A DNA stretch of 64,000 nt. Source: Trichocoleus sp. FACHB-46 (GTDB taxonomy: Bacteria; Cyanobacteriota; Cyanobacteriia; FACHB-46). The translations under genes and the position numbers were made by a program. Positions within the stretch are counted from its first letter, which is position 1. The number at the start of each line of letters is the position of its first letter. Shown piece by piece: positions 5,289 through 47,604 of this stretch. The notes under the pieces were generated by a model that was given only the letters and a program-made list of their open reading frames with translations, was not told the origin of the DNA and did no database searches. The stretch covers positions 124,001 to 188,000 of the forward strand of contig NZ_JACJOD010000008.1 of the NCBI RefSeq assembly GCF_014695385.1. The letters are read 5' to 3'.

Positions 5289-6098
5289 ATGACAGGTGTT
5301 GTACCCGCAAGTTTGCATCTCTACGAGTTATATCGGAGTCAAACAGGGCTTTCCGTTCCATCTTCATCAGGGCTGACAGTATTTTGCGACTTTGATGGTC
5401 CCATTATTGATGTTTCAGAGCGCTACTACAGTACCTATCAACTAGGACTCGCCGACACTCAAGCGACTTACCAAGCTCAAGGAACTACCTTACCCATTCA
5501 GCTACTCAGTAAAGAACAGTTCTGGCAGATGAAACAAGATCGCGTGCCAGATGTAGAGATCGCAATGCGCTCTGGACTCGTTCAGCAATCACAAATTGAT
5601 GTGTTTTTACAGCGAGTTGGCCAAATCGTAAATCAGCCGACCCTGCTTCAAAAGGATCGGCTGCAGCCGGGAGTGCGCTGGGCACTCAAATTACTGCATA
5701 CAAAAGGTATTAGGCTGGTTTTAGTGACGCTACGATGCCAACAGCAAGCGACTCAGATCTTGCAAGAATATGGTTTGGCAGATTTGTTTAGCGGTATTTA
5801 TGGCGCTGATAACGACCAAGCGGCTTACCAAAACTACGCTGACTACAAAACTCAGTTGTTAGTTAAAGCTGCGCTGGAGCAAGGGTTGCGCGGTGACTTG
5901 GCTCAGTCATCCTGGATGATTGGAGATACCGAGGCCGATATTTTGGCTGGACAAGCGTTAAAGATTCCCACGATCGCCTTGACTTGTGGGATTCGCAGCA
6001 GACGTTATGTAGAGCGATTGCAACCCACCTGTATCCTCAGCGATCTCGTATCTGCAGTGCAGCATGTCGTAACTTGCTACCATCTAGTCCAAGCCTGA
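5289..6098 (+). CDS. HAD-superfamily phosphatase
   Basis: A 269-residue haloacid-dehalogenase-fold hydrolase of the phosphoglycolate phosphatase/pyrophosphatase type, likely removing phosphate from a small metabolite. The nucleophile motif CDFDG is at about residues 33-37 (D34 nucleophile, D36 acid/base). Motif II is the VLVTLR threonine near residue 147, motif III the lysine of NYADYKTQLL, and motif IV the GDTEADILAG aspartates near residue 218. The helical cap lies between motifs I and II. No membrane or signal segments. It stands alone on the plus strand and converges with mreD. The substrate is not predictable. Confidence 0.8.
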   Translation: MTGVVPASLHLYELYRSQTGLSVPSSSGLTVFCDFDGPIIDVSERYYSTYQLGLADTQATYQAQGTTLPIQLLSKEQFWQMKQDRVPDVEIAMRSGLVQQSQIDVFLQRVGQIVNQPTLLQKDRLQPGVRWALKLLHTKGIRLVLVTLRCQQQATQILQEYGLADLFSGIYGADNDQAAYQNYADYKTQLLVKAALEQGLRGDLAQSSWMIGDTEADILAGQALKIPTIALTCGIRSRRYVERLQPTCILSDLVSAVQHVVTCYHLVQA

Positions 6099-6124
6099 AA
6101 TCATACAAGCTGAGAATTGTAGGT

Positions 6125-6709
6125 TTAAGGTTGTTCTAGCAGACCCATATGCTCCCACCAGCGGTTGAGAGGGAAGTAAACGACGGGAGCCCAAAGACTA
6201 CTCAAAATTGCTGAACTCAAAGCAGTGCGCTGGTGGTATGTCCAGATTTCGGCCAGTGTCCGCATGGCTTGAACCGATGCGCCATCAAACTTTTGCAGAC
6301 TAAATTGAATGGCAATCACAGTTTCTGCTAAGACAGCCATACCAAAAACAATCAGTGCCACAGAGATAAAGTCTTCTTCGATGTATCGCTGCTTCTGTAG
6401 ACGAGCCGTTAACACACCCACTACTATCAAACTTAAAACATGAGTGGGATGAGGAGCCGTCATACCATCTTGCAGGAGCCCTAAGACTAATCCAGCGATC
6501 GCTCCTTGAAACACAGTCCGCTTAACGCTCCAAGCCACGACCCAGATTAGCAGCCAATTAGGACCAATGCCTGCTAGTTCCAGACCTGGAAAGCGTAGAG
6601 GCAGAGCCAGTAGGCATAAAAGCACAGAGACGACTGTTACAGTCCAATTTAAAAGCGAGCGATGATAAGCAGAACCTTTCAGCAGGTTTTTGAAGGAATC
6701 ATTCCTCAT
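6125..6709 (-). CDS. mreD: rod shape-determining protein MreD
   Basis: A small integral membrane protein (194 residues, about five hydrophobic segments) that belongs to the elongasome with MreB and MreC and helps direct lateral wall synthesis. The call rests on size, topology and position as last gene of mreB-mreC-mreD. The frame is open further upstream, but the ATG at 6709 overlaps the mreC stop as ATGA, the usual sign of translational coupling, so this start is preferred. MreD is poorly conserved in sequence, so identity depends partly on context. Confidence 0.85.
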   Translation of the reverse strand: MRNDSFKNLLKGSAYHRSLLNWTVTVVSVLLCLLALPLRFPGLELAGIGPNWLLIWVVAWSVKRTVFQGAIAGLVLGLLQDGMTAPHPTHVLSLIVVGVLTARLQKQRYIEEDFISVALIVFGMAVLAETVIAIQFSLQKFDGASVQAMRTLAEIWTYHQRTALSSAILSSLWAPVVYFPLNRWWEHMGLLEQP

Positions 6710-7491
6710 GGGATATTCGACTTTGGAGTTGCGGGCGTAGAATTTTGAAGTTCGGCTTGGGTAGGATAAACGATTACCCATTCCAAGTAACTGATAGGGG
6801 CAGATAGCTCAATCACTGCTTCAGGCGCAGGGCTTTTATTCAGGTTGACTGACTCAACTCGCCCCACTGGCATACCGGATGGAAAAAGCTGACTGAATGT
6901 GGAAGTAGAAATCACATCGCCACGCCGCACATCTGGAACTTTATCAAAGAATTCCATCACTGCTCGGTTACCTGCTTGGCCTCGCATGAAACCCGTGTAG
7001 CGGCTGCGACTTACAACCACGCCGACTCGGCTAGTGGGATCACTAATGAGCAGAACGCGACTAGTATGAGGAGTGCTGCTGACAATCCGCCCGACCAAGC
7101 CTCCAGGCCCAGCGACCACATGACCTACCTGTAGGCCATCTTTGCTACCCCGACCCAAGGTAACTTGTTGCCACCAATGGTCGGCGCTACGCCCAATTAC
7201 CGGAGCAGCAATTCCCTTTTGAGGTGTAGCAGAGGCATAACCGAGTAAATCTTGAAGCTTTTGATTTTGGCTTTCTAGCTCCACTAAGCGCTGCTGGAGT
7301 TCTAGAACCCGCGCGTTGGCAATTTGCTCTTCGGGGTTCGGAGCGCCTTGGAAAGGGCGAGTCAGACCTTGATAAACTTCTAGAATTGCCGCTCCCTGGG
7401 TTTCTCGCACTACCCAAGCTGTACTGAGGGTAAGACCCACCAGCAACATTCTTACGCCATATCGATCCCACCAGCGACGCAGTGTATACAT
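6706..7491 (-). CDS. mreC: rod shape-determining protein MreC
   Basis: A bitopic protein of 261 residues: a short cytoplasmic N-terminus, one transmembrane helix at about residues 13-30, a coiled coil at about 55-85 (QQRLVELESQNQKLQDLL), then the periplasmic beta domain with the typical VIGRSADHWWQQVTLGRGSKDGL segment. It links the MreB filament to the periplasmic wall-synthesis enzymes. Length and domain order are normal. The stop overlaps the mreD start by 4 bases. It lies 342 bases downstream of mreB, so it may have its own promoter. Confidence 0.93.
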   Translation of the reverse strand: MYTLRRWWDRYGVRMLLVGLTLSTAWVVRETQGAAILEVYQGLTRPFQGAPNPEEQIANARVLELQQRLVELESQNQKLQDLLGYASATPQKGIAAPVIGRSADHWWQQVTLGRGSKDGLQVGHVVAGPGGLVGRIVSSTPHTSRVLLISDPTSRVGVVVSRSRYTGFMRGQAGNRAVMEFFDKVPDVRRGDVISTSTFSQLFPSGMPVGRVESVNLNKSPAPEAVIELSAPISYLEWVIVYPTQAELQNSTPATPKSNIP

Positions 7492-7833
7492 GCAATCTAA
7501 ACTATCTTGGTTTGAACTTACTTTCTAGGAATCCTTAGCTTGCTGAAATGGTTTCCTTGGCTGAAGGCAGGTTAGTGCTTAAGGCAAAGGAAGGCTAACA
7601 AATGCGATCGCCCAGCAGTGATAGCAGATTTAAGGGCCTCGTAAGATTTGCAGGGCAACGCTGGGCCTAGGGGGTTGCTCAAATTGAGTCTAGGGCCTGA
7701 AGAACTCAATCCCAGGAGACCCAAGTAGACTAAGGCAGAGCAATACCGCTCTCCAAACTAGGGAAGTGCGCGATCGTCTAAGGCCACCGGACTTAGGCGA
7801 TCGCCAGCCCTGAAACACATCAATTTGATGTTG
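7492..7833. other. 342-base spacer between mreB and mreC
   Basis: No open reading frame of note. It holds a hairpin at 7770-7804 built on two HIP1-like octamers and some GC-rich direct similarity (CTAGGG repeats) around 7672-7700. A promoter for mreCD may lie here, but no clear boxes were seen. Confidence 0.4.
7770..7804 (-). terminator. HIP1-containing hairpin downstream of mreB
   Basis: A stem of GCGATCGCCTAAG against CTTAGACGATCGC (one mismatch) with a nine-base loop, 30 bases after the mreB stop. There is no T-run, so it may be an attenuator, an RNA-stabilising stem or a chance product of HIP1 density rather than a true terminator. Confidence 0.35.
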
Positions 7834-8877
7834 TTACATATGGCGAGAGCGACCGCTGAATACTCGTTCTAGCTGCTTGAAGTTCTCTAACACCCGACCT
7901 GTGCCTAATACAACACAGCTCAGGGGATCGGCAGCAACGTGAACTACAATGCCAGTTTCGTGACTAATCAGGGTATCAATGCCTTTTAATAGGGCACCTC
8001 CTCCAGCCAACATGATCCCGCGGTCAATAATATCCGCTGCCAGTTCAGGGGGAGTGCGCTCTAAGGTACGCTTAACAGCCTCAACAATCACTAATAGAGG
8101 CTCAGACATACTTTCGCGAATTTCTGGCCCCTTGATCGTAACGGTGCGAGGCAATCCAGAGAGTAAATGCAGACCCCGAACTTCCATCATGGCTTCATCA
8201 ACTTCGTTGGTGGGGTAAGCGGAACCGATGCGGATCTTAATTTCCTCCGCTGTGCGTTCCCCAATTACCAAGTTATGAACTTTCTTCATGTACTGAGTGA
8301 TTGATTCACTCAGCTCATCACCCGCGACTCGAACAGATTCACTCAGAACTGTTCCTTGTAAGCTTAAAACTGCGACTTCAGTGGTGCCGCCACCAATATC
8401 GATAATCATGTTACCGGTAGGTTCTGCCACAGGCAGTCCCGCTCCGATCGCGGCGGCAACTGGCTCATCAATCAGGTAAACTTCACGGGCACCCGCTTGA
8501 GAAGCTGCTTCCATGACCGCCCGACGTTCTACCCCTGTAACCCCACTAGGAATGCCAATGACGATCCGGGGTGAAACCAGCGTGCGGCCTTCATGCACCC
8601 GCCGAATAAAATGCTTCAACATCAGTTCTGCGGTGTCGAAGTCGGCAATCACACCATCCCGCAGGGGACGCAGAGCAACTACATTCCCAGGGGTCCGTCC
8701 CAGCATTTTTTTGGCATCTTCTCCGACCGCCAAAGGAATCCGGTCATCTTGGTCAATCGCCACCACCGAAGGTTCTTGGAGAACGATGCCTTTACCTGAT
8801 ACATAAACTAGTGTGTTCGCGGTACCGAGGTCGATACCCATGTCCCGAGATAAGGAAAAACGACTGAAAAGACCCAC
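7834..8877 (-). CDS. mreB: rod shape-determining protein MreB (bacterial actin)
   Basis: Actin-fold ATPase (347 residues, usual length) that polymerises under the membrane and organises the wall-elongation machinery. Phosphate-1 motif DLGTANTLVY is at about residue 16, the second phosphate loop IDIGGGTTEVAVLS near residue 160 and the adenosine-binding segment MLAGGGALLKGID near residue 290. An N-terminal amphipathic stretch (GLFSRFSLSRD) would serve for membrane binding. The start is GTG at 8877. It is first in the mreB-C-D order, though separated from mreC. Confidence 0.96.
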   Translation of the reverse strand: MGLFSRFSLSRDMGIDLGTANTLVYVSGKGIVLQEPSVVAIDQDDRIPLAVGEDAKKMLGRTPGNVVALRPLRDGVIADFDTAELMLKHFIRRVHEGRTLVSPRIVIGIPSGVTGVERRAVMEAASQAGAREVYLIDEPVAAAIGAGLPVAEPTGNMIIDIGGGTTEVAVLSLQGTVLSESVRVAGDELSESITQYMKKVHNLVIGERTAEEIKIRIGSAYPTNEVDEAMMEVRGLHLLSGLPRTVTIKGPEIRESMSEPLLVIVEAVKRTLERTPPELAADIIDRGIMLAGGGALLKGIDTLISHETGIVVHVAADPLSCVVLGTGRVLENFKQLERVFSGRSRHM

Positions 8878-9157
8878 TAGTTTCTACGCCCCTAAACGAA
8901 ATGCTGCTGCGCCTGAATACAATGTAGCCGAGGTGGATTTTATTACGTTTTTTATCCTGAGTCTAGTTAGATTCAGGTTAACTGTAAATCCCATTAATTA
9001 CGCTAAGTTTGACGAATCTTTAGTCACATTCCTAGGAGTGGAGGCTGAAATCAGGATGAATTTTGAATTTATCTGATCTTGATAACTTTTATCTTAACGA
9101 CTATTTGTGCTCTCACTAACAAATCTACAACCTTTATTGGGTGATAAATTGAGGCTC
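8878..9157. other. divergent intergenic region between mreB and the ssb leader
   Basis: AT-rich stretch that should carry the mreB promoter (minus) and the ssb promoter (plus). The plus-strand frame starting inside mreB is a shadow. A TATACT box at about 9282, close to ssb, is a candidate -10, but its -35 partner is poor. Confidence 0.35.
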
Positions 9158-9328
9158 ATGAGGCTCAAGATTAGTAAAAGCGCTAAAATTTTTGAACCAC
9201 TTGTTCAGCTACTAGAAAGAGCGCGATCTCAAAACCAGTCATCAACCATGAAGCGGCGATCGCGACTAGAAAACATTCGATATACTATAGGTACGCTTGT
9301 ACTAACTGTTGTAATCATAATCCTATGA
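9158..9328 (+). CDS. possible small membrane protein coupled to ssb
   Basis: A 56-codon frame with basic N-terminal half and a strongly hydrophobic C-terminus (residues about 38-56, ending TLVLTVVIIIL). Its TGA overlaps the ssb ATG as ATGA, which is the geometry of translationally coupled genes. The frame is open back to a GTG at 9107, and a second internal ATG at 9248 would leave only a 26-residue peptide. The ribosome site before 9158 (GAGG, 3 bases away) is too close, which weakens the case. It could equally be untranslated leader. Confidence 0.25.
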   Translation: MRLKISKSAKIFEPLVQLLERARSQNQSSTMKRRSRLENIRYTIGTLVLTVVIIIL

Positions 9329-9693
9329 GTCTTAACGTTGTCACTTTGGTCGGTCGGGTAGGCGGAGATCCAGATGTCAAATTTTTTGAATCGGGTAGCG
9401 TAGTTTGTAATTTGACCCTAGCAGTGGACCGACGGACCCGTAATAATGACCAGCCAGACTGGTTCAATTTGGAGTTGTGGGGCAAAACAGCACAAGTAGC
9501 GGCTGACTATGTGCGTAAAGGCAGCTTGATCGGCGTGAGCGGGGCGCTCAAGTTTGAGTCTTGGCAAGATCGCAATACAGGTGCAACACGTTCTAAGCCT
9601 GTAATTCGCGTCGATCGCCTAGAACTGCTAGGTTCCAAGCGAGACAATGACGCTGGTTCTATGAACAATTACGGCGGCGATGACGAGTTTTAG
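9325..9693 (+). CDS. ssb: single-stranded DNA-binding protein
   Basis: OB-fold protein of 122 residues that coats single-stranded DNA in replication and repair. The N-terminal strand LNVVTLVGRVGGDPDVKFFESG and the segment WFNLELWGKTAQVAADYVRKGSLIGVSG are typical. The acidic tail is short (GGDDEF) and ends in phenylalanine, consistent with the tip that recruits partner proteins; the low-complexity linker common in other bacteria is nearly absent, as usual in cyanobacteria. The ATG overlaps the stop of a possible upstream mini-ORF. A strong terminator follows. Confidence 0.93.
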   Translation: MSLNVVTLVGRVGGDPDVKFFESGSVVCNLTLAVDRRTRNNDQPDWFNLELWGKTAQVAADYVRKGSLIGVSGALKFESWQDRNTGATRSKPVIRVDRLELLGSKRDNDAGSMNNYGGDDEF

Positions 9694-9748
9694 CGGAGTT
9701 GCCAGAGTCTTGCACCTGAGCTTTTGATTGTGTGTAACTGTGATGGGT

Positions 9749-9776
9749 AGGGGCAGGTCTTGTACCTGCCCTTTTA
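9749..9776 (+). terminator. rho-independent terminator of ssb
   Basis: Stem GGGCAGGT (9751-9758) with ACCTGCCC (9764-9771), extended by A-T and G-T pairs, followed by TTTT. The sequence also resembles GC-rich palindromes that recur in cyanobacterial genomes. Confidence 0.7.
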
Positions 9777-9828
9777 TGTTGGGGCAGCTGCTCAGAAGCC
9801 CCTAGGAAGTCACCCACGAGAGGTGCCC

Positions 9829-10596
9829 TTAATACCGAATCTCTAGGGTGACGCTGGCATCAATTTCTTGCTCGCCACCCACTACAGGCGTATCAGCCAT
9901 TTCAGCTCGCTGCAATTTAGAGAAGGCCATGACGGGGCGAGGGGGGGGAGTGCTGGCTCCGTTGACCTGGATACTGACGATTTCCTGGGCCGTGAAGTTG
10001 AGCGCTTCCAAAACAGCGTTGGCTTGCTGTTGGGCATCCTGGGTGGCTTCGCGTAGCGCTTGTTTTTGGGCAGCGGCGATCGCGGGGTCTGGAGCCACAA
10101 AACTCACACCGTTGACTCGCGTCGCTCCTGCTTTGACTGCGTCATCAATAATGGTGCCTGCTCGTTGTGTATCAACCCGAAAGCTGACGGTATTGGTAGC
10201 AATGTAGCCGACTAAGCGTTGCGTGTTGTTCTCGTAACTGTAGTTGGGGTTGAGGGTGATGCCTGTAGTTTGCAGTTTCTCCACATTGCGTGCCTTGAGC
10301 AATGCCACGACTGCCGAAGAGCGCTTGGCGGCTTCCTGCTGCACAGCTTCTGCGGTTTTGCCTTGCACTTCTACGCCTAGCTCAACTTGAGTCAAGGTGG
10401 TAGGAATTGTTTCGATGCCACGGCCAGTGACGGTAAGGGTTCTTAGCATTCTCTCTGCGGCTCTCTCTTGAGCGAGAACAGGATTGGCAAAAGTGAGGCT
10501 CAGTATTCCTAGGGCGATTGGTAAGGCTGTCCAGCGCTGCCAGGAACGGGATGGCCAAGAGCGCGATGGGCGATGGGACATCTGGGCTTGGTACAT
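9829..10596 (-). CDS. SIMPL-domain (DUF541) exported protein
   Basis: A 255-residue periplasmic or exported protein with a signal peptide (hydrophobic stretch ALPIALGILSLTF, cleavage after NPVLAQ near residue 42). The mature part shows the SIMPL pattern LTVTGRG near its start, ELGVEVQGKTAEAVQQEAAKRS, then LNPNYSYENN and VRVDTQRAG-like segments. The family (DUF541) occurs widely; its role is uncertain beyond links to stress tolerance. I chose the ATG at 10596 because GAGGAG lies ten bases ahead; a GTG at 10614 overlaps that ribosome site. A short duplication, PSRSW-PSRSW, precedes the signal helix. The EVE gene is divergent, 140 bases away. Confidence 0.8.
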   Translation of the reverse strand: MYQAQMSHRPSRSWPSRSWQRWTALPIALGILSLTFANPVLAQERAAERMLRTLTVTGRGIETIPTTLTQVELGVEVQGKTAEAVQQEAAKRSSAVVALLKARNVEKLQTTGITLNPNYSYENNTQRLVGYIATNTVSFRVDTQRAGTIIDDAVKAGATRVNGVSFVAPDPAIAAAQKQALREATQDAQQQANAVLEALNFTAQEIVSIQVNGASTPPPRPVMAFSKLQRAEMADTPVVGGEQEIDASVTLEIRY

Positions 10597-35766: not shown

Positions 35767-38625
35767 CTATTGAGCTTCACCAATTAAGGTAAAGGCTGCC
35801 CAATCTTTCGGGTCAGGATGTTGTTTCATCGTGGCTAACATGGCTTGGCGAAGAGCTTGGGCTTTATCTGGTTGCTGTTGCAGTGTCTGGTAGAACTGCG
35901 TCATCAGAGTTGCTGTAGGCGCATCAGGTACTTGCCAGAGGGAGACCATGACGCTGGGGGCACCAGCGGCAATAAAGGAGCGCGAGAGACCTACCACACC
36001 ATCTCCAGTAATGCGACCACGCCCAGTATCGCAAGCACTGAGAACCACTAAATCAGTGTTGAGCTTCAGGTCAAGAATTTCGCTAGCTGTCAGGAGGCCG
36101 TTATCTCGACCAGAAGGAGCTAAGGCGATCGCCCCTGGTACTCCCAAACCTTTGAAGTCATCCAATAGCCCGTGGGTAGCTAAATGGACAAGTCGTGTTT
36201 GGGTCATCTGCTGCAAGATAGTAGTTTTAGTCGCTTGGCTACCAGTTAAAGCTTGGGTTTTTAGCAGGGCCGCGATCGCCTTAGCTTCTTGCTCCGCACC
36301 AGGGAGGCTGGGGAGTGGTTGAGGGGTGGCACCGAGAGGTAGGCTGACTTTGGGCATGGTGGGGTTGCCCACTACAAGCAAATTTTTGGCTTTGCCTGAT
36401 TGCTGTTGGCGTTTCTGACGCGTCAGGTCTAGGACTTGAATCGAAGGCGCGGTGAGAACAGTGTGTTGCTCGATCAAGTAGCGACCATTGCTGGCTTGCA
36501 AGGCAGGAAAAGGGACCAAAAACAGGGCTTCTTGGGGTAGAAAGGTAACGTGGGCGTTAGGGTCAGTAGGCAGGAGATCTGCGATCGGCTGAATCAGTAA
36601 TTGGTGGAGTTGTTGCAGTGGTTGGTTGGTTTGGTTGTTTACCTTGGCGATCGCTCTCGCCACCGTCGTCGTGTCTTCTTGGAACGTCAATCCTCGACCC
36701 TTGATGCCGATCGCTTCTCTTGCCTGCGTGACTAAACTTTCCAAGACGGAAGCAGTATCCGCTGCATTAATTCCTGATTGAGGCAAACCTTTTAACTCGA
36801 CTTGGCGAAAACTGATATTTCCTGTGGGCTGAATCACCCAAATGAATAGCTGTGGAGCTTGCGAAGGAGCGATATCCTGCACGATCGCATATTCTACCAG
36901 CGTTGAATTTTGAGTTTTAGCAATCTGCTTGATTTGGGCCAGAGTTGGAGGATTGAGAGCAGGAGCTGTGGTTGAGTTGGTGCTGAGGCGTTGAGCGAGC
37001 AACTCAACAAAGGCACGGGCACGACTGCGTTCAGCAATTTCTAAAGCGGGATTGGTCTGCTTATGGGCAATCAGCGTTTGCTGCAACGTGCCATAGGTTT
37101 TCTGTTGTGTCTCAAAGATAGAGACTTTCTCCGCATCCGTCAGCCCTGGGCGCAAAGATTCCAAAATTGCGATCGCCTGTCGTAGCGTTTTCTCCGCCTC
37201 CGATTGTTGCCCGGAACGATGCAAAATCCGACCAATACTGCTCAGCGTCACCCCCTCATTGACGCGATCGCCCACCTCCCGATGCACCGTGAGCGCTTGC
37301 TGATAGAACTTCAAAGCTTGGGCATTCTGTCCCTGTTGCTCATAGGAGTGGCCCAAGTTGCTCAGCGCCACCCCTTCCCCCGTGCGATCGCCTACCTGCT
37401 TGTAGAGTTGCAACGCCTGCTGGTAAAACTTCAGCGCTTGATCCGTTTGCTTCTGGTTGTCGTAGACCTGCCCCAAATTGTTTTGCGTGGTGGCTTCCCC
37501 AGCGCGATCGCTGAGTTCCTGGTAAATCGCTAACGCTTGTTGATGCAGCTTCAGTGCTTGGTCGTATTTGCCCACCCTGGCATAGACCCGCCCAATATTG
37601 TTCAGTGTCGCGGCTTGACCTACCTTGGTAATCGATTCCTGATTCAAGGCATTGCCAATATCCCGCCGCATCGCCAAGCCCGACTGCTGAAACTCCAACG
37701 GTTGGGAATATTGCCCCACAATCTCGTATAGCAACCCCAACTCAGTAAACGCCGTGGCTGCATCCGGGCGATCGCTAAACTTGTTAAAAATCGCCAGAGC
37801 TTGCTGAGTCGAATCCAGCGCTTCCTTGTACTGCCCAATGCTGAAAAACAGCCCACCCATATTATTGAGAATCGTTGCCTTCGTGCCTTGATAAGCGGGC
37901 AGTGAATCAAAAATGGCTAAGGCTTGGCGATAACTTTCCAGCGCCTTGGCGTACTGCCCCAGATTCACATACACCACGCCCACATTACCCAGCGTCGTGG
38001 CTTCGCCCTCGCGATCGCGCCCCTCCCGCTGAAGTTTGAGCACCTGCTGATACGCTTCCAACGCTTGCGGATATTGCCCCAACCGGAAGTAAACACTAGC
38101 AACCTCATTCAGCCGTAGCTTCTCACTGTTGCGATCGCCCAACTGCCGAATGATCCCTAATGCCTTCTGGTAAAACTCCAGCGCCTTGGTGTATTGTCCT
38201 TGCTCCCCATAAGCCACCCCCATATCAGCCAGCGTTGCCCATTCCCCCTCGCGATCGCCAATCTTCTGCCGCAACTTCAGCGCCTGCTGATAGAACTCCA
38301 ACGCCTTCGGGTACTGCCCCAAACTGTAGTGGTAGACATTGGCAATGTGATTCAGACTTTGCGCCTCCCCCGCCTTAGCCCCCGTCGCCTTAAAAATCGC
38401 GATCGCCTTTTGCAACGTTGCTAACGCCTCTCGCGGCTGCCCCTGGCGAAACTGGTCATACCCTTGCTGATTCAGATAAACCGCCTCAGTAATCTGCGCC
38501 TGCTCTGTCTCCGACTGCGCCAACACCACCGAAGCCCCTAAAGGATTGAAGTGATCCAACGGTGTGCCACCTGCCAGTAATAAAGCAGCAACTACAAAGC
38601 TCAGCGATCGGCGGTGATAGGACAT
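35767..38625 (-). CDS. exported TPR-CHAT (caspase-like) protein 1
   Basis: A 952-residue protein. A signal peptide (residues 1-37, ending ASVVLAQ) is followed by about 12 tetratricopeptide repeats of 40 residues (about 55-500; consensus pieces such as LYEIVGQYSQPLEF and NNLGQVYDNQKQTDQALKFY). A helical connector precedes the C-terminal CHAT domain (about 640-952). CHAT is a caspase/separase-fold peptidase; the His is in HLATHG (about residue 818) and the Cys in LSACDTG (about residue 865), so it looks catalytically intact. The signal places it outside the cytoplasm, unlike CHAT proteases in known defence systems. It is the last of a minus-strand array of paralogues; the C-terminal segment PDPKDWAAFTLIGEA is shared by all. 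Confidence 0.88.
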   Translation of the reverse strand: MSYHRRSLSFVVAALLLAGGTPLDHFNPLGASVVLAQSETEQAQITEAVYLNQQGYDQFRQGQPREALATLQKAIAIFKATGAKAGEAQSLNHIANVYHYSLGQYPKALEFYQQALKLRQKIGDREGEWATLADMGVAYGEQGQYTKALEFYQKALGIIRQLGDRNSEKLRLNEVASVYFRLGQYPQALEAYQQVLKLQREGRDREGEATTLGNVGVVYVNLGQYAKALESYRQALAIFDSLPAYQGTKATILNNMGGLFFSIGQYKEALDSTQQALAIFNKFSDRPDAATAFTELGLLYEIVGQYSQPLEFQQSGLAMRRDIGNALNQESITKVGQAATLNNIGRVYARVGKYDQALKLHQQALAIYQELSDRAGEATTQNNLGQVYDNQKQTDQALKFYQQALQLYKQVGDRTGEGVALSNLGHSYEQQGQNAQALKFYQQALTVHREVGDRVNEGVTLSSIGRILHRSGQQSEAEKTLRQAIAILESLRPGLTDAEKVSIFETQQKTYGTLQQTLIAHKQTNPALEIAERSRARAFVELLAQRLSTNSTTAPALNPPTLAQIKQIAKTQNSTLVEYAIVQDIAPSQAPQLFIWVIQPTGNISFRQVELKGLPQSGINAADTASVLESLVTQAREAIGIKGRGLTFQEDTTTVARAIAKVNNQTNQPLQQLHQLLIQPIADLLPTDPNAHVTFLPQEALFLVPFPALQASNGRYLIEQHTVLTAPSIQVLDLTRQKRQQQSGKAKNLLVVGNPTMPKVSLPLGATPQPLPSLPGAEQEAKAIAALLKTQALTGSQATKTTILQQMTQTRLVHLATHGLLDDFKGLGVPGAIALAPSGRDNGLLTASEILDLKLNTDLVVLSACDTGRGRITGDGVVGLSRSFIAAGAPSVMVSLWQVPDAPTATLMTQFYQTLQQQPDKAQALRQAMLATMKQHPDPKDWAAFTLIGEAQ

Positions 38626-38917: not shown

Positions 38918-41900
38918 TCACTCCGCCTCACCAATCAAAGTAAACGCCGCCCAATCTCTAGGATCTGGGTGCTGCTTCAACATCGCCAACATTGCCTGCC
39001 GTAGCGCTTGCGCCTTATCCGGTTGCCGTTGCAGATTTTGGTAAAACTCAGTCATCAGAGCTGCCGTTGGGTGATCGGGCACCTGCCACAGCGACACCAC
39101 CACACTTGGGGCACCCGCTGAAATCAGCGATCGCGATAGCCCTACTACCCCATCGCCCGTAATCTTGCCGCGTCCTGTGCCACAAGCACTCAGCACCACC
39201 AACTCAGCATTCAGCTTCAATCCGAGAATGTCATTCGCCGTCAGCAAACCATCATCCTGACCCGAAGGCGCTAAGGCGATCGCACCTGGAATGCCTAGCC
39301 CTCGGAAATCATCCAACAAACCATGAGTTGCTAGGTGAATAATCTGAGCATCACCCATCTTTGCCATCACCGTTGCTTTCGTTGCCGCGCTGCCCGTAAT
39401 CGCCTCTGTGTTGAGGAGCGAGGCAATCATCTTGGCTTCCCGCTCAGCTCCAGGCAAGCTGTAAAGTGGTTGCGATCGCTCACCATTTTCGCTCGGCACG
39501 TTAGGCATCGTGGGGTTGCCCACAATTAGAGACTTCTGGGGCGATCGCGGTAGTGTTGTGGCGGCAATCTGCGTAGGCTGAGACTGCTGCGCTATGCCTT
39601 GGCGTTGCCTTTGTTGGTAGGTGAGTGCCAAAACCTCGATTGCTGGGGCCGTCAGCATCGTATGTTTTTCGATCAGATACTTTCCGGCGGCATCTTGCAA
39701 AGCGGGGAAAGGAGCCAAAAAGAGAGAACCTTGAGGAATGAAGACCACACGAGCAGTTGGGTCGCTTGGCAACAGATCCGCGATCGGCTGAATCAACAGT
39801 TGATGCAGTTGCTTCAGTTGTGACTGTTGCGTCTGGTAACGTTGGAGCCTCTCCAAGGCACTGGCGACAACCTGAGTGGTTTGGTTAAATGCCAGCCCCC
39901 GCCCTTCAATCCCAATCGAGGCTCTGGTACTAGCAACCAAATCATCTAAAGAGGTCTTTTGCTCCTGCCACAGCGGTTTGAGGTCTACTTGGCGGAATGC
40001 TACTTCTCCATTGGGCTGTACCACCCAGATATAGAGCGCTTTGTCCTGAATCTGCCGCTGCCCCTCGACCTGAAAGGCTTCTTGAATAATCGAATACTCA
40101 ACCAAGGTGGCATTCTGAGCGCGGGCAATTTGTTGAATTTGGGCAATGCTGGGAGGTTCTAGATTAGCAGCGCCTGCCAAACTTTTGCTGCCCTGAGTGG
40201 GCAACTGCTTTGCCAACAATTCCACAAAAGCACGGGCTCGACCGCGTTCTGCCACTTCTAGCGCTGCCTGCGCCTTATTCTGGGCAATCAAGACTTCTTG
40301 AAGCGTGCTGTAAGTCGTTGCTTGAGTCTCAAAGATTGAGATCTTCGTCGCATCATCATTTTGATCAAGCTGTGCCCGTAGCGACTCCCAAACTTTGATC
40401 CCTGCAAAAAGCGCTTGCTCTGCTTCAGCCAATTTACCCAAACGTAACCAAGCATCTCCTAAATTATTCAAGGCATGGCCTTCACCAGGGCGGTCCTGCA
40501 ATTGTTGCGCGAGCGCCAAACTTTGCTGTTGATAGTTAGCTGCTTGCTGGTAGTTTTCCAGGCCATAGTAAGCCAGCCCTAAGTTACCCAACGCTCGCCC
40601 TTCGGCTAGGCGATCGTTCAACTCACGCGCGATCGCTAATTGTTGCTCCAGATGCTTAATCGCTTTGGCGTGATCCCCTTTGGTGAAGTAAACCAAACCT
40701 AAATTGCCTAACGACTGCCCAATGCCTCGGCGGTCCTGAGCTTTCTCCGCGATCGCTAAACTTTCCTGTGGATATTCCAGTGCCTTAGCAAGATTGTCTT
40801 GAGCCAGATACGCGATCCCCAAGTTGCGTAGGGTCATGCCTTGCAATTCGGGAACTGGCAGCGTGCGGCTGATGGCTAAACTTTGCTCGTAGTACTGAAT
40901 CGCCTTTGTGTAGTTACCCACAGCACTGTAAGCAGCTCCTAATCCACTTAACGCTTCCGCTTCGCCTGCTCGGTTTTGCAGTTGCTGAGCGAGCGCCAAA
41001 CTCTGCTGGTAGCGCTGAATTGACTGGGCGTAGTTGCCTACGACAAAATGGATGCTGCCTAAGTTATGCAGGGTTTGTCGTTGCTGCTGCGGTTGGTTTT
41101 GCTGCTGAGCTAAAGCGAGTTGCTGCTGGTAGCACTGAATCACTCGCCCTTGGTCAGTAATGACTCGGTAAGTCGTTCCCTGATTTTCTACAATCTGTCC
41201 AACTCGCAAACAATCCTGGGTACTCGTTGCGATCGCAATTTGTTGCCCTTGAACAGTAGTTCCCAGAGTGGGATTGGAGCGAGGGCGATCGTTACTCAGA
41301 GCAATTTCTTGCCGCCGAATCGTGCCTGGTTTGGGTTGCGGTGCAGCTCCAAGCGTTGCGCTGGGAACTTCCGGGGGAGGTGAAGGTGGTACTCCTGTAG
41401 TGGCTCCAATGCCTGTTTCAGGCTGAGGCGAGGGCGGAATTCCACTTGATGGTTCAGGTAAAGGATCGGGAGAAACCCCTAATGCTGGTGTACCTATACC
41501 TTCAGGTGAGCCTGGTTCAGGATTAATCGGAATATCAGGGGGTACTGGCCCAGCTTGTTGAGTGGGTTTCTCGGAGGGGATAAGTGGAAGGTCCCCTGGA
41601 ACTTCTGGAATAGCTGGTAGGCTAGCTCCTGGGTCTTCTGGAATGGGTGGCAGGTCAACTTCTGGGATGGATGGGGGGAATGTAATGCCCATCTCTTTAT
41701 CAATCGGAAAGGGAATGTCTATATCTGGAAGAGGGTTAGGAGAAATTTTGCCACCAGTTCCAGGGTTGCTGACTCTATCACCAGGGTCAATGAGAACTTC
41801 GATGTTGCCTCTAATGTAGAAGGTGCTGCCAGTGGGGCTAGTAACGAGATAGGTATTGCCATCAGGCTGAATGCTTAAAGGATTGCCGATACTGTCGTGC

Positions 41901-42919
41901 ACACCTTTGTCAGGTAGCGGGAGAGGTGTATTGCCCAGCGTGACTTTGCCAGCAGCCACAAGCGTGGCACTCCGAGCCGTAGCATTTTGCACCACTACAT
42001 CTCCTGGCAAAACGGTGAGGCCAGAGCCAGATAAAACTAGCTGCCCGTCTCGGTTGGTGGTGATATTCGTAGCATTTTTGCCGAGACCGCCTGTAAGGAG
42101 ATCGGGGAGATCCACAATCGGGAAGTCCCAGGGGTTGGGTTGATAGGTGTCAGGAGCGATCGCCTGAATATCTAGAGTCAGCAAACTTTCGGCTTGGCTC
42201 AGCCGTACCAAACTGTTACCTGGAACCGCCGCGACGGTGATGTGTCCTTCGGGAGCGGTGAGTTGACCTGTGCTAATCACAGTGCCACCGAGCAACGTTA
42301 AATTCTGTCCAGCGGCAACTTCTAGATTCCCGGTATTGATGATCCCGGCGGGTTGGCTCATGCTGAAGGCGAATAAATCTGGTGTGCCGACTAAGCCTTC
42401 ATAGCTGTTAGGGCCAGAAGCGTTCAGCCACTCTTTACCAAAGCCAATTCCGTTGGCAGTGGTAGCGGTGAAAGAGCCAGGAATGTTGAGACTGGCATTG
42501 GCACCAAAGACGATCCCCGCAGGATTGATGAGAAATAAATTGGGACTGCCACCTGTAACTTGAATTAAGCCATCGATCGCCGACAAGTTGCCGCCTACCA
42601 CCCGTGCCAAAATGTTTTGCGTGGCGGGATCAGCGAGGAAATTGGCCGTGTAGCCTGTTTCGAGAATGAACTGAGTAAAGCTGTGAAACAGGTTCGCTCC
42701 GTCTTGCGATCGCTGGCCCCCTGTAATATCAAAGCGGCTACCGTCCGGGGTGACGAGCGTCCCTGTATCATCTGGGGCAGGAAGGATTGGTAAGGCTTTG
42801 CCGTCTGGAATCCCACCAGCATGGCTAGATTGGGGCGGAAAAACTGCGGCCAAAACTAATGCGACTAGCAACAAGCTCACCCCGAGGTGGGGCGATCGTA
42901 AACGATTTTTCAAGGTCAT
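38918..42919 (-). CDS. two-partner-secretion-type FHA-TPR-CHAT fusion protein
   Basis: A 1333-residue exported fusion. A signal peptide (residues 1-35) precedes a filamentous-haemagglutinin N-terminal secretion domain (about 50-270), with SIDGLIQV-like LSAIDGLIQVTGG, LFLINPAGIVFGANASLN (the NP-x-GI motif) and TPDLFAFS. A proline-rich linker (about 390-560) follows, then about six TPRs (about 640-870) and a C-terminal CHAT peptidase domain (about 1000-1333), with HLATHG (His about 1199) and LSACGTG (Cys about 1246). The first part is what two-partner systems use to cross the outer membrane through a TpsB (FhaC/ShlB) pore. No TpsB gene is in the window. The domain order suggests a secreted or surface-held caspase-like peptidase. 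Confidence 0.88.
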   Translation of the reverse strand: MTLKNRLRSPHLGVSLLLVALVLAAVFPPQSSHAGGIPDGKALPILPAPDDTGTLVTPDGSRFDITGGQRSQDGANLFHSFTQFILETGYTANFLADPATQNILARVVGGNLSAIDGLIQVTGGSPNLFLINPAGIVFGANASLNIPGSFTATTANGIGFGKEWLNASGPNSYEGLVGTPDLFAFSMSQPAGIINTGNLEVAAGQNLTLLGGTVISTGQLTAPEGHITVAAVPGNSLVRLSQAESLLTLDIQAIAPDTYQPNPWDFPIVDLPDLLTGGLGKNATNITTNRDGQLVLSGSGLTVLPGDVVVQNATARSATLVAAGKVTLGNTPLPLPDKGVHDSIGNPLSIQPDGNTYLVTSPTGSTFYIRGNIEVLIDPGDRVSNPGTGGKISPNPLPDIDIPFPIDKEMGITFPPSIPEVDLPPIPEDPGASLPAIPEVPGDLPLIPSEKPTQQAGPVPPDIPINPEPGSPEGIGTPALGVSPDPLPEPSSGIPPSPQPETGIGATTGVPPSPPPEVPSATLGAAPQPKPGTIRRQEIALSNDRPRSNPTLGTTVQGQQIAIATSTQDCLRVGQIVENQGTTYRVITDQGRVIQCYQQQLALAQQQNQPQQQRQTLHNLGSIHFVVGNYAQSIQRYQQSLALAQQLQNRAGEAEALSGLGAAYSAVGNYTKAIQYYEQSLAISRTLPVPELQGMTLRNLGIAYLAQDNLAKALEYPQESLAIAEKAQDRRGIGQSLGNLGLVYFTKGDHAKAIKHLEQQLAIARELNDRLAEGRALGNLGLAYYGLENYQQAANYQQQSLALAQQLQDRPGEGHALNNLGDAWLRLGKLAEAEQALFAGIKVWESLRAQLDQNDDATKISIFETQATTYSTLQEVLIAQNKAQAALEVAERGRARAFVELLAKQLPTQGSKSLAGAANLEPPSIAQIQQIARAQNATLVEYSIIQEAFQVEGQRQIQDKALYIWVVQPNGEVAFRQVDLKPLWQEQKTSLDDLVASTRASIGIEGRGLAFNQTTQVVASALERLQRYQTQQSQLKQLHQLLIQPIADLLPSDPTARVVFIPQGSLFLAPFPALQDAAGKYLIEKHTMLTAPAIEVLALTYQQRQRQGIAQQSQPTQIAATTLPRSPQKSLIVGNPTMPNVPSENGERSQPLYSLPGAEREAKMIASLLNTEAITGSAATKATVMAKMGDAQIIHLATHGLLDDFRGLGIPGAIALAPSGQDDGLLTANDILGLKLNAELVVLSACGTGRGKITGDGVVGLSRSLISAGAPSVVVSLWQVPDHPTAALMTEFYQNLQRQPDKAQALRQAMLAMLKQHPDPRDWAAFTLIGEAE

Positions 42920-43260: not shown

Positions 43261-44331
43261 TTATGAAATGGTCAGAGCCTGTCGTTGCTCCTTAGAGGTG
43301 GGGGCGCTGAGAGTGACGTCACGGCCTGTTCGGAGATCCCAAAGTTTGATGATGTCGCCCCAGCCGCCACTGACTAATGCTTGACCATTGGAGCTGAGGG
43401 CGATCGCCTCGATACTACTGGATTGACGAGGCAGAGTTTGGGTGAGTTGTCCGGTTGTTAACTGCCACAACTTAATCGTGTTATCGCTGCTGCCACTGAT
43501 CAGCGTTTGGCCATTGCGGCTCAGCGTCAAAGCGCTAATGGCGGCTTGATGACCCATTAAAGTTTGTCTTACTTGACCTGCTGATAAATCCCAGACTTTG
43601 ATGGTGCGATCGCCATTGCCACTGATTAAGGTTTGACCATCGGCGCTAATGGCTAAGGCATTAATGCCAAAAGCGTTATCTGAAAAAGTCCGCAGCACTT
43701 CGCCGTTACTCAGTTGCCACAGCTTGATTACATTCCAACTGCTGCTGGCTAAAGTTTGTCCGTCAGCACTAATCGCTAAGGCGTAAATTGAGTCCTGGTG
43801 TCCAGTCAAAGTTCGCTCCAACTTGAACTTCTGCCCGACAGCCGCTAAGCGCCAGACCCGAATCGTTTTGTCGCCACCGCCGCTGAACAAAGCTTGACCA
43901 TTGGGACTGAAGGCGATCGCTTCTACCCAATCGGTATGCCCCGTGAGAGTTTGCAACAGTTGTCCAGTGGGTACGCTCCAAAGTTTGATGGTTTTGTCGT
44001 GACTGGTACTAGCGAGAATTTGACCATTGGGACTGAAGGCGATCGCTAAAATCGGTAACGGATGCCCTGCTAAGGTGCGGATTTCTGCTTGAGTTTGCGA
44101 GTTCCACAACTTGATTTGCTTGTCATGGCTTACCCCTGCCACTACTTTGCCATCGGAACTAATGGCTACGGCTGCATGACCTGAGAGAATCCGGGCGATC
44201 GCTTTGGGCAGTTGACTTTGAGGTTGGGCAATTGCAGATGGGGCAGCAAGTATGGGGTAGGCGAAGCAACAAGTGGCAGCGATCGCACTAAGACTCATGC
44301 TAGAAAGGCGAATCATGAGTGGGTTCAGCAT
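43261..44331 (-). CDS. exported seven-bladed WD40 protein
   Basis: A 356-residue protein with a signal peptide (LSAIAATCCFAYPILAAPSAIAQ, cleavage near residue 35) and seven WD40 repeats ending in KLWNSQT, KLWSVPT, RVWRLAA, KLWQLSN, KVWDLSA, KLWQLTT and KLWDLRT, enough for one closed beta-propeller. WD40 propellers are binding platforms. The gene starts 3 bases after the stop codon of the TPR-CHAT gene at 44335, so the two are co-transcribed and probably co-translated. Both are exported, which suggests they meet outside the cytoplasm, perhaps as sensor and peptidase; that pairing is inference. No enzyme domain is attached, unlike many cyanobacterial WD40 proteins. Confidence 0.88.
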   Translation of the reverse strand: MLNPLMIRLSSMSLSAIAATCCFAYPILAAPSAIAQPQSQLPKAIARILSGHAAVAISSDGKVVAGVSHDKQIKLWNSQTQAEIRTLAGHPLPILAIAFSPNGQILASTSHDKTIKLWSVPTGQLLQTLTGHTDWVEAIAFSPNGQALFSGGGDKTIRVWRLAAVGQKFKLERTLTGHQDSIYALAISADGQTLASSSWNVIKLWQLSNGEVLRTFSDNAFGINALAISADGQTLISGNGDRTIKVWDLSAGQVRQTLMGHQAAISALTLSRNGQTLISGSSDNTIKLWQLTTGQLTQTLPRQSSSIEAIALSSNGQALVSGGWGDIIKLWDLRTGRDVTLSAPTSKEQRQALTIS

Positions 44332-44334
44332 GAT

Positions 44335-47300
44335 TTATTCAGCCTCACCCATCAGCGTAAAAGCGGCCCAATCCAGCGGGTCAGGGTAGCTGGCTTTGGT
44401 TACTAGCATGGCTTGCCGTAACGCTTGGGCTTTATCAGGTTGGCGTTGCAGTTGCCGATAAAACTCGGTCATCAAGGCAGCAGTGGGTTCGTCAGGCACC
44501 TTCCACAGCGACACGATCACACTCGGTACGCCAGCAGAAATTAAGGAGCGGGACAACCCCACCACGCCATCGCCTGTAATTCTTCCCTGCCCAGTGTCGC
44601 AGGCACTTAAAACTACCAGTTCTGCATTGAGCTGCAAATTGAGAATTTCGCTGGCAGTGAGGAGGCCGTCATCTTGGCCAGAAGGCGCTAAGGCGATCGC
44701 TCCCGGTACACCTAAGCCTTTGAAATCATCTAACAAGCCGTGTGTCGCTAAGTGAACAATCTGAGCTTGCGGAAGTTGCTGCAAAATTTTGGCTTTGGTG
44801 GCTTGATCTCCGATGAGAGCTTGGGTGCGGAGAAGCGTGGCGATCGCTTTGGCTTCCTTTTCGGCTCCTGGTAGGCTGGCCAGTTGCTCGGCAGGTTCGC
44901 CCAACTTGGGACGAATGCTGGGCATAGTGGGATTGCCGACAATTAAGGATGAAGGAGAAGGGAGAAAGGATGAAAGTGGATCTGCTTTCTTATCCCTTGC
45001 CTCCTGTAATCGTTGGCGTTGTTGGTGGGTGAGGTCTAGGACTTGAATTGAGGGAGCGATCAAAACAGTATGTTTTTCGATCAGGTATTTGCCGTCGGCA
45101 TCCTGTAGGGCGACAAAAGGGACGAGAAAGAGAAACTGCTGGGGAATGAAGGTGACGTGAGCATTAGGGTCTTTGGGCAGCAAATCGGCGATCGGGTCGA
45201 TCAGCAGTTGATGCAGTTGTTGCAAGCGCTTGTTTTCAGCTTCAGCAGCATTGGCATCGGCAGTAGCACGGGCGATCGCCTCGGCATCTTCCTGAAACAC
45301 TAATCCTCTGACCCCGATGGAACTGCGGCTGCGAGTGACTAACTCCTTGAGGGGTTGGGTGGTTGGAGTGGGAGTCACTCCCTTTTGCCACAGCGGTTTC
45401 AAGTCCACTCGGCGAAAGTCCACTTTGCCGTTGGGTTGAATCACCCAGATGAATAATTCTGACTCGCGCAGAGGTTCACCGTTGACATTCCGCTCATCGT
45501 CGTCGATGACGGAGTACTCGACCAGCGTAGTGTTGTGCTGCTTGGCGATCGCTCGAGTTTGAGCCAAATTAGGCGGCTGGATTTTGGCGACGGCGTCAGC
45601 TTGAGTGGGCAAGCGTTCGGCTAAAAGTTCCACAAACGCTCTGGCCCGACCGCGCTCAGCCGCTTCCAGAGCAGCTTCTGGTTTGTTTTGGGCAACTAAG
45701 GCCTTTTGTAAGAGGCGATAGGTGCTGGTTTGCTCTTCAAAAAGGGAAATTTTATTGCGGTCATCATCTCCTAGACTGGCTCGCAAAGATTCCCATGCTT
45801 GAGCGCTGGCGAGCAGACTGGTTTCTGCGGCGGTTAATTGCTTGGCAGCCAATTGAGCGCGACCGAGGTTGCCGAGGGCATAGCCTGCAACGCGTTGATT
45901 GCCAATTTTCTGCGCTAGAGCGGCGGCTTTAGCTTGGTAGCTAGCGGCTTGGGCGTAATCCTGGCGTGTGTAATGAGTCCGTCCCAGATTGATCAGCGTG
46001 GTCGCTTCTCCGGCGGGGTCCTTAGTCTTTTGGGCGATCGCTAGCGCTTGGTTGTAATAAGTTAAGGCGAGTTGGGGTTGTTTCAGGTCGTCATAGATCA
46101 AGCCAATGTTGTTGAGAACCGTGGATTCTCCTTCGGCGTCTTGGACTTGGCGGAGTAGCTTCAGGGATCGCTGGTAATAATCTAGGGCTGGCTCGTAATC
46201 GCGGCGGTCGTAATACACGCTGCCAATATTGGCTAAAGCATAAGCTTCGCGTCCGGGGTCATCGGCTTCTTTGAGGACCGCTAGCGCTTGCTGAAAAATT
46301 TCTAAGGCTTGGTCTAATTGGCCCACATAAGAATAGACGGTCCCCAGATTGGCCAAGGTGGTAGCGCGGTCAAAGCGATCGCTATCAGCTTTCAGGCTGG
46401 CGAGTGCTTGATTGAAGGCATCAAAGGCGGTTTGGTATTGGCCCAGTTTGGCGTACACCAAGCCCATGTTGTTGAGCGTGCGATTTTGGCGGGTGTGGTC
46501 TCCGGTGGATTTCGAGATCGCCAACGATTGGCGGTGATAGTTCAGCGCTTGGGCATAGTCGCCGAGCTTGCTGGATATACTGCCCATGTTGTTGAGCACC
46601 GTGCCCTCTCCAGCCCGGTTTTTGATCTCTTTCAAGAGAGGGAGTGCTTGGTTGAAGGCAGCTAAGGCGAGTTCAAGTTGGCCTGTGGAATTGTAGACCT
46701 GACCCATGCCCACAAGAATAGTCGCTTGGCTGTAGCGATCGCCTAATTGTTGCGCCAATGGCAATGCTTGTTTGTAAGCCTCTAGCGCGGGTTGCTTTTG
46801 GCCCAAGCTGTCGTGCGCGGCTCCCAAAGCTAGCAAAGCCAAGATTTCCTGCTGTCGTTCACCGTTCTTTTTGGCACTGGTTCTCGCTTGCTCAAACTTC
46901 GCGATCGCTTGCTGCACCGAAGCTCTAGAGCCTTGGCTCAGTAATGCCTGCCCTTCCTTCAGGGCTTGCATGGTGGGGTCTAGGGTATTGTTTGATGAGG
47001 GAAGTTGGGCCGCAATCACGGCTTGCTGTTGCTGATAAGTCTTGACCTGGTCAAAATCTCCTAACTCTTGCGAAGTTTTGATCAAGCTTTCCAATGCTTG
47101 CGCTTGCTTGGGCACATCTTTAAGCTTTTGGGCCAAGGCAAGGGCAGGTTCCTGGTAGCTCAGCGCTTGCTTGTTCTCGCCAACGGACGCATAAATGGTG
47201 CCGAGAGTATTCAGCATTTGCCATTCTTTCTCGGCATCGCCCCACTGTCGTGCTAGTTTCAGCCCTTGTTCGTAGTAGCTGGCAGCAGGGGGAATTTCTT

Positions 47301-47604
47301 GCTGGCTGTAGTGCAGCAAGCCCAGGCAGTAGAGAATTAGAAACTCACCTTCGCGATCGCCTAGACTCCGATAAATCTGGAGCGCCCGTTGCCAAGATGT
47401 TTCGGCAGCGGCAAACTCTCTGGCTTCAAGTTGAGCAAAGCCTTGCTTTTGCAGTTGATCCGCTTCGATTTTCTGAGCCGAATTTGGGGTTGCAGGTTTT
47501 TGTGTGGCGGTAGGTTGAGCGATCGCCTCAGGAATCGGCAAAATCATCCCAGCAGGCAAGACTAAAGCAAATAACAGCGCAGCAAAGAGTTTGGCAGAGA
47601 GCAT
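44335..47604 (-). CDS. exported TPR-CHAT (caspase-like) protein 2
   Basis: A 1089-residue protein: signal peptide (residues 1-30, LFAALLFALVLPAGMILPIPEAIAQ), about 13 TPRs in two blocks (about 48-200 and 240-620), a connector, and a C-terminal CHAT domain (about 760-1089) with HLATHG (His about 955) and LSACDTG (Cys about 1002). It closely resembles the protein at 35767 over the CHAT domain. It is first in the array (minus strand) and 3 bases upstream of the WD40 gene. A glycosyltransferase gene precedes it by about 130 bases. Substrate and trigger unknown. Confidence 0.88.
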   Translation of the reverse strand: MLSAKLFAALLFALVLPAGMILPIPEAIAQPTATQKPATPNSAQKIEADQLQKQGFAQLEAREFAAAETSWQRALQIYRSLGDREGEFLILYCLGLLHYSQQEIPPAASYYEQGLKLARQWGDAEKEWQMLNTLGTIYASVGENKQALSYQEPALALAQKLKDVPKQAQALESLIKTSQELGDFDQVKTYQQQQAVIAAQLPSSNNTLDPTMQALKEGQALLSQGSRASVQQAIAKFEQARTSAKKNGERQQEILALLALGAAHDSLGQKQPALEAYKQALPLAQQLGDRYSQATILVGMGQVYNSTGQLELALAAFNQALPLLKEIKNRAGEGTVLNNMGSISSKLGDYAQALNYHRQSLAISKSTGDHTRQNRTLNNMGLVYAKLGQYQTAFDAFNQALASLKADSDRFDRATTLANLGTVYSYVGQLDQALEIFQQALAVLKEADDPGREAYALANIGSVYYDRRDYEPALDYYQRSLKLLRQVQDAEGESTVLNNIGLIYDDLKQPQLALTYYNQALAIAQKTKDPAGEATTLINLGRTHYTRQDYAQAASYQAKAAALAQKIGNQRVAGYALGNLGRAQLAAKQLTAAETSLLASAQAWESLRASLGDDDRNKISLFEEQTSTYRLLQKALVAQNKPEAALEAAERGRARAFVELLAERLPTQADAVAKIQPPNLAQTRAIAKQHNTTLVEYSVIDDDERNVNGEPLRESELFIWVIQPNGKVDFRRVDLKPLWQKGVTPTPTTQPLKELVTRSRSSIGVRGLVFQEDAEAIARATADANAAEAENKRLQQLHQLLIDPIADLLPKDPNAHVTFIPQQFLFLVPFVALQDADGKYLIEKHTVLIAPSIQVLDLTHQQRQRLQEARDKKADPLSSFLPSPSSLIVGNPTMPSIRPKLGEPAEQLASLPGAEKEAKAIATLLRTQALIGDQATKAKILQQLPQAQIVHLATHGLLDDFKGLGVPGAIALAPSGQDDGLLTASEILNLQLNAELVVLSACDTGQGRITGDGVVGLSRSLISAGVPSVIVSLWKVPDEPTAALMTEFYRQLQRQPDKAQALRQAMLVTKASYPDPLDWAAFTLMGEAE

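Follow-up and report, generated by a model that had tools for sequence, protein, structure and literature searches.

The TPS-TPR-CHAT protein and its gene cluster

The 64,000-nucleotide stretch of Trichocoleus sp. FACHB-46 analysed here (the window) carries a gene for a 1333-residue protein (38918..42919, ATG start) in which a two-partner secretion (TPS) domain is joined to TPRs and a CHAT domain. This domain order, with an NPAGIVFG motif in the TPS domain, had been proposed in a first-pass annotation made from the nucleotide sequence and its open reading frames (ORFs). It was confirmed by Pfam, with all TPS, TPR and CHAT matches above the curated cut-offs; the gene lies on the minus strand, as do all window features given coordinates below. 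A Sec signal peptide (residues ~1–34, 42818..42919) is predicted from a 12-residue hydropathy of 3.32 at residue 16 with three K/R before it, the putative cleavage site being placed by eye. The TPS secretion domain (PF05860, residues 56–245, 42185..42754, E = 1.3e-40) contains the NPAGIVFG motif at residues 132–139 of the protein sequence (42503..42526). The TPS family profile matched the solved beta-helix domains of EtpA (8cpk) and HMW1 (2odl) at 2.4e-11 and of HxuA (4i84) at 7e-8; the single-sequence AlphaFold model of the TPS part was worthless (pLDDT 36), and the beta-helix cannot be read from that model.

A Pro-rich linker (residues 385–545, 41285..41767; 44 Pro in 161 residues) separates the TPS domain from a TPR array (residues ~600–860, 40340..41122) recognised by several Pfam TPR families. 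At the linker/TPR junction are Cys570 and Cys596 (41132..41212), conserved in the genus, for which we propose a disulfide; together with Cys1246 they are the only Cys of the whole protein. The CHAT domain (PF12770, residues 1034–1331, 38927..39820; E = 4.1e-71, 240 bits against a cut-off of 24) has an intact HLATHG motif at residues 1195–1200 (39320..39337; His1195 and His1199) and an intact SACGTG motif at residues 1244–1249 (39173..39190), in which Cys1246 is the predicted nucleophile. In an AlphaFold model of the TPR-CHAT part, the TPR helical pairs mostly reached pLDDT 85–97, with a Foldseek match to the LGN TPR, and the CHAT part was mostly below 50. Reading frame, domain order and neighbours of the fusion are kept in two further genomes of its genus, where the fusion is 83–86% identical; it is therefore a real ORF, and a chance ORF or an assembly chimera is ruled out. 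The TPS part is as conserved as the remainder (87–88% identity across the genus), with its motifs and full length kept.

Downstream of the fusion lies a gene for a 952-residue TPR-CHAT protein with a signal peptide and without a TPS domain (35767..38625), which has an orthologue in one of the two same-genus genomes. Upstream of the fusion are a gene for a 356-residue WD40 beta-propeller protein with a likely signal peptide (43261..44331) and, ending 3 base pairs before it, a gene for another TPR-CHAT protein, of 1089 residues and with a signal peptide (44335..47604); these two are conserved in both same-genus genomes. All proteins of the cluster have signal-peptide-like N-termini, the weakest being that of the WD40 protein, and the cluster therefore seems to encode exported proteins throughout. 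The TPR-CHAT part of the fusion is 52% identical to either TPR-CHAT neighbour. The propeller between the CHAT genes would be an exported bacterial WD40 protein.

Recurrence of the architecture and its probable TpsB pore

We sampled 80 regions holding the TPS domains closest to that of the window, a selection by similarity and not a census, and a contrast set of 20 regions around the best-scoring PF05860 domains. TPS and CHAT were found in one ORF in 66 of the 80 similarity-chosen regions, versus none of the 20 contrast regions; a separate CHAT gene was present within 6 of the latter. The architecture is common in cyanobacteria, and not the single oddity that the first-pass annotation had made of it. 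The window-type TPS/TPR-CHAT junction itself was present in all three genomes examined of its order, all of the same genus, and a contig scan with the whole fusion protein found relatives mainly through the TPR region. A search of open-access PMC, which did not cover subscription literature, turned up no paper describing the TPS-CHAT architecture or its gene neighbourhood; the architecture is probably already visible to databases through Pfam and NCBI annotation.

TPS and CHAT also occur in the window genome, which has the psaA and psaB genes of a cyanobacterium, as adjacent separate genes, on contigs C58 and C76. At the C58 locus (L026), the TPS gene beside a TPR-CHAT gene consists of two overlapping ORFs (6947–8671 and 8530–10269), which suggests a frameshift, either real or an assembly error. 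Four further regions (L092, L095, L097 and L098) hold short TPS proteins of 563–617 residues with a TPS domain very similar to that of the window; they have no CHAT domain, and their C-terminal end is a different conserved stretch (TVEVIPNSLTLRN or similar).

The window protein shares with the TpsA exoproteins FHA, HMW1, HxuA and EtpA a signal peptide, an N-terminal TPS domain and the NPAG/NPNG motif region, and differs from them in its C-terminal TPR-CHAT part, its unlinked TpsB and its lack of a long FHA-type repeat region. A TpsB gene usually, not obligatorily, stands beside that of its TpsA protein. As the first-pass annotation had noted, no TpsB gene is present within the 64 kb of the window; the first of its two options, a pore encoded elsewhere, was borne out by two intact TpsB genes in the same genome, on contig C6 (608 residues) and contig C76 (600 residues). 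Both proteins have POTRA_2 and ShlB domains, likewise as in TpsA systems, and a reading without any pore is ruled out by these two genes. C6-type proteins are 87–93% identical among the three genomes of the genus; between the C76 and C6 types, identity is only 39%. In a single-contig genome of the genus (G024), each of the three TPS proteins is a CHAT fusion, and a C6-type protein is the only TpsB found. There the TpsB gene adjoins a TPS-CHAT gene; in the window genome and the third genome of the genus (G039), that gene is gone from the otherwise matching place and the TpsB is kept. The simplest reading of these observations is that the C6-type TpsB serves unlinked fusions, and the 608-residue C6 protein would most likely be the partner of the window fusion. 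With a single TpsB able to take on several clients, as with the three of G024, the absence of a pore gene beside a TPS gene would be understandable.

Across 242 genomes of the class, a clear TpsB was found in 179 of the 181 genomes with a clear TPS domain versus 7 of the 61 without (Fisher 1.6e-43, a p-value that overstates the association since the genomes are related). TpsB was present in all 58 sampled genomes with a TPS-CHAT fusion. Cargo and pore are joined in a single polypeptide in one region (L186, genome G175), where a 1473-residue ORF (6030–10448) contains TPS, POTRA_2 and ShlB, with CHAT, DUF928 and CHASE2 genes alongside.

Location, putative catalysis and origin of the CHAT part

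The first-pass annotation had pictured a TpsB-exported peptidase at the cell surface. A TpsA-type exoprotein with a CHAT domain and its pore elsewhere agrees with the sequences, whereas the comparative evidence favours the periplasm over the surface as the site of the peptidase, and we consider it fairly likely that TPR-CHAT is retained there. CHAT proteins encoded beside TPS genes have a signal-like N-terminal segment and no TPS domain; with a Sec-type signal only, nothing would therefore carry them through TpsB. Between TPS and CHAT, all 68 fusions have either no Cys or exactly two, never an odd number, which we take as a sign of an oxidising compartment. A pair is present in 36 of the 68, and in both TPS-TPR-CHAT types, that of the window and a second family (f19), it directly precedes the first TPR. 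Exactly two Cys are also found in 34 of 46 CHAT-less cyanobacterial TPS proteins, mostly ~90–140 and 2–30 residues from the C-terminus, a layout that matches the C-terminal disulfide anchor by which the C-terminus of HMW1 and HxuA is kept periplasmic (PMC5422565). The FhaB prodomain is retained in the periplasm as well (PMC11077949), so that in these systems the C-terminal part is periplasmic and the N-terminal part outside. The window fusion resembles them in where its Cys pair and its Pro-rich region lie, and differs in that the part past the predicted anchor is a predicted enzyme. A strongly Pro-rich stretch precedes CHAT in 47 of the 68 fusions, usually 120–290 residues upstream, versus 11 of 53 CHAT-less TPS proteins.

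Periplasmic retention does not account equally well for everything. No Cys pair stands between TPS and CHAT in 32 of the 68 fusions, about a quarter of the existing pairs are distant from the junction, and no sequence homology links one pair to another; a universal Cys-pair anchor was therefore rejected, and for the window protein itself such an anchor is likely. LepA of Pseudomonas aeruginosa, a TPS protein, is a serine protease. It is made as a TpsA and secreted, which gives peptidase export via TpsB a precedent (PMC5422565). Were the window protein handled like LepA, which is not a CHAT protein, all of it including TPR-CHAT would cross TpsB, and CHAT would work at or beyond the surface. The TPS domain, the signal peptide and TpsB genes needed for this route are all present, and the very low Cys content of the fusions (0.13%, versus 0.95% in other ORFs) suits passage through the pore. 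Nevertheless, the CHAT genes that are split from TPS keep a signal-like N-terminus with no TPS domain, CHAT is closely preceded by a Pro-rich stretch, in many cases together with a Cys pair, and the frequent CHASE2 and DUF928 neighbours described below are predicted to be inner-membrane or periplasmic. A surface or released protease is possible, if rather unlikely, and retention in the periplasm is the likelier of the two. From the proteome of a Nostoc water extract, a peptide SLSLLGGTVV was assigned to a 'CHAT domain-containing protein' (PMC9895726); it resembles TPS-region sequence of TPS-CHAT proteins, and as a single whole-extract peptide it is uninformative on location.

The CHAT domain is putatively catalytic. 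An alignment of 21 diverse fusions shows no variation at either His of HLATH or at the Cys, and the 66 complete CHAT domains among the 68 fusions have exactly one Cys each, with none in the TPS domain. The strong retention of this lone Cys in nearly Cys-free proteins suggests catalysis. In fusion L160, the Cys stands without the usual [ST]AC context. A sequence search of the PDB with the window CHAT gave a single match, to DdvA (8rot/8rw5, titled transmembrane anti-sigma factor; E = 8.4e-5). Foldseek with the TPR-CHAT model also matched DdvA over its whole length (1.7e-7), which is only a lead because CHAT was modelled poorly, and which the sequence match supports. DdvA shares the CHAT fold with the window protein and has no TPS domain; that the nearest solved CHAT belongs to a transmembrane anti-sigma factor was counted toward a periplasmic location. 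The CHAT family profile matched the Craspase CHAT chains at 6e-4 to 9e-3; Csx29 of Craspase shares the TPR-CHAT/CHAT fold, and it is cytoplasmic and RNA-guided. A CHAT domain that is catalytically dead or non-proteolytic, acting with the TPRs as a protein-interaction module, would fit the anti-sigma factor match, and no close relative with demonstrated protease activity was found. With its His and Cys invariant in the 21 aligned fusions and the sole Cys kept in all 66 complete ones, such a domain seems improbable to us.

A quick IQ-TREE search on 88 CHAT sequences gave a tree in which the window fusion, together with both of its orthologues, branched with the TPR-CHAT neighbours of the cluster. 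Fusions of the f19 family fell elsewhere in the same TPR-CHAT branch, and the other fusions formed a separate main branch. By Pfam, TPRs are present in the window and f19 fusions and absent from two main-branch fusions scanned. These relationships suggest more than one origin of the TPS-CHAT fusion, a reading that is weakened by the tree being a quick one and by its well-supported branches being compatible with a single fusion origin. That the TPS domain is a relic, gained through recombination by an ordinary periplasmic TPR-CHAT protein and no longer exported by TpsB, would fit the lack of a linked TpsB gene and the nesting of its CHAT part with two non-TPS, predicted Sec-exported cluster neighbours, but it is very unlikely given the intact motifs, full length and genus-wide identity of the TPS part, the TpsB that each of the three genomes has kept, and the existence of the second TPS fusion to TPR-CHAT, f19.

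CHASE2 and DUF928 neighbours and a possible envelope relay

Genes for CHASE2 and DUF928 proteins, which are inner-membrane or periplasmic by prediction, are frequent near the fusions. A CHASE2 gene was present in 23 of the 66 fusion regions, a DUF928 gene in 21 and a TpsB gene in 14, where ~2.5%, ~1.8% and ~0.9%, respectively, would be expected from gene density in a genome of such size; these expected rates are rough and the fusion regions mutually related. The other parts of the CHASE2 proteins vary and include a cyclase, Ser/Thr kinase, His kinase, GGDEF, GGDEF-EAL, one to three TIR, or CHAT. An envelope part that stays the same while the outputs are exchanged suggests that signals are relayed. 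In the window genome, CHASE2 and/or DUF928 genes adjoin TPS or TpsB genes on contigs C76, C6 and C28. A CHASE2 gene beside DUF928 was noted near WD40 genes in Nostoc punctiforme (PMC5587647); the pairing is the same as here, and the passages concerned mention neither TPS, CHAT nor TpsB.

From the domains, dyad residues, TpsB genes, conservation, recurrence and neighbourhood together, we infer the following course for the window protein. The protein, an exoprotein of the TpsA type with a TPR-CHAT peptidase at its C-terminus, would be exported by Sec to the periplasm, where its TPS domain would dock on an unlinked TpsB, most likely the 608-residue C6 protein, and the N-terminal part would pass to the cell surface. 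Translocation would probably be arrested at the Pro-rich linker and the Cys570/Cys596 loop, as at the HMW1/HxuA anchor and the FhaB prodomain. TPR-CHAT would then remain periplasmic, alongside the exported TPR-CHAT and WD40 proteins encoded by its neighbours, and the probable targets of the peptidase would be its own TPS protein or signalling partners in the periplasm. The DUF928 proteins and CHASE2 inner-membrane receptors at related loci suggest a relay that starts at the outer membrane and ends in the cytoplasm. Taken as a whole, a TpsA protein with its N-terminal part outside, TPR-CHAT in the periplasm and a possible relay is the explanation we favour, with slightly more than even confidence.

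For the relay, the neighbourhood of the window fusion itself is unfavourable: no CHASE2 or DUF928 gene is adjacent in the window cluster, and the relatives that have such neighbours mostly belong to the other CHAT branch. The relay is therefore argued from the relatives. We put forward only tentatively, as a conjecture held at less than even confidence, that TPS-CHAT proteins form the outer-membrane end of an undescribed cyanobacterial relay, in which a surface TPS arm would control a periplasmic CHAT that, with DUF928, would act on CHASE2 receptors with interchangeable outputs; the window protein would be a separately assembled version using tandem periplasmic TPR-CHAT genes. If this were true, a surface protein of a two-membrane bacterium would have a caspase-like protease physically attached to it, and cyanobacteria would have a means of passing an outside event on to inner-membrane receptors, some with TIR or CHAT outputs of a kind linked to cell death and defence. 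The TPS-CHAT/CHASE2/DUF928 gene neighbourhood deserves separate study.

Two loci of the window genome hold CHAT and DUF928 in regions with no TPS gene: in one (L188, genome G000, contig C3:1000–15000), CHAT is next to DUF928 and CHASE2, and in the other (L189, contig C36), it is next to DUF928. Among the sampled relatives, CHASE2 receptors with one to three TIR or a CHAT part lie beside TPS-CHAT genes in L119 (5836–9144), L162 (5010–8309), L120 (11276–13288) and L138 (3923–5893), as well as in L096, L102, L115, L128 and L160. Their TIR or CHAT parts would give an envelope receptor an output of the death or defence type.

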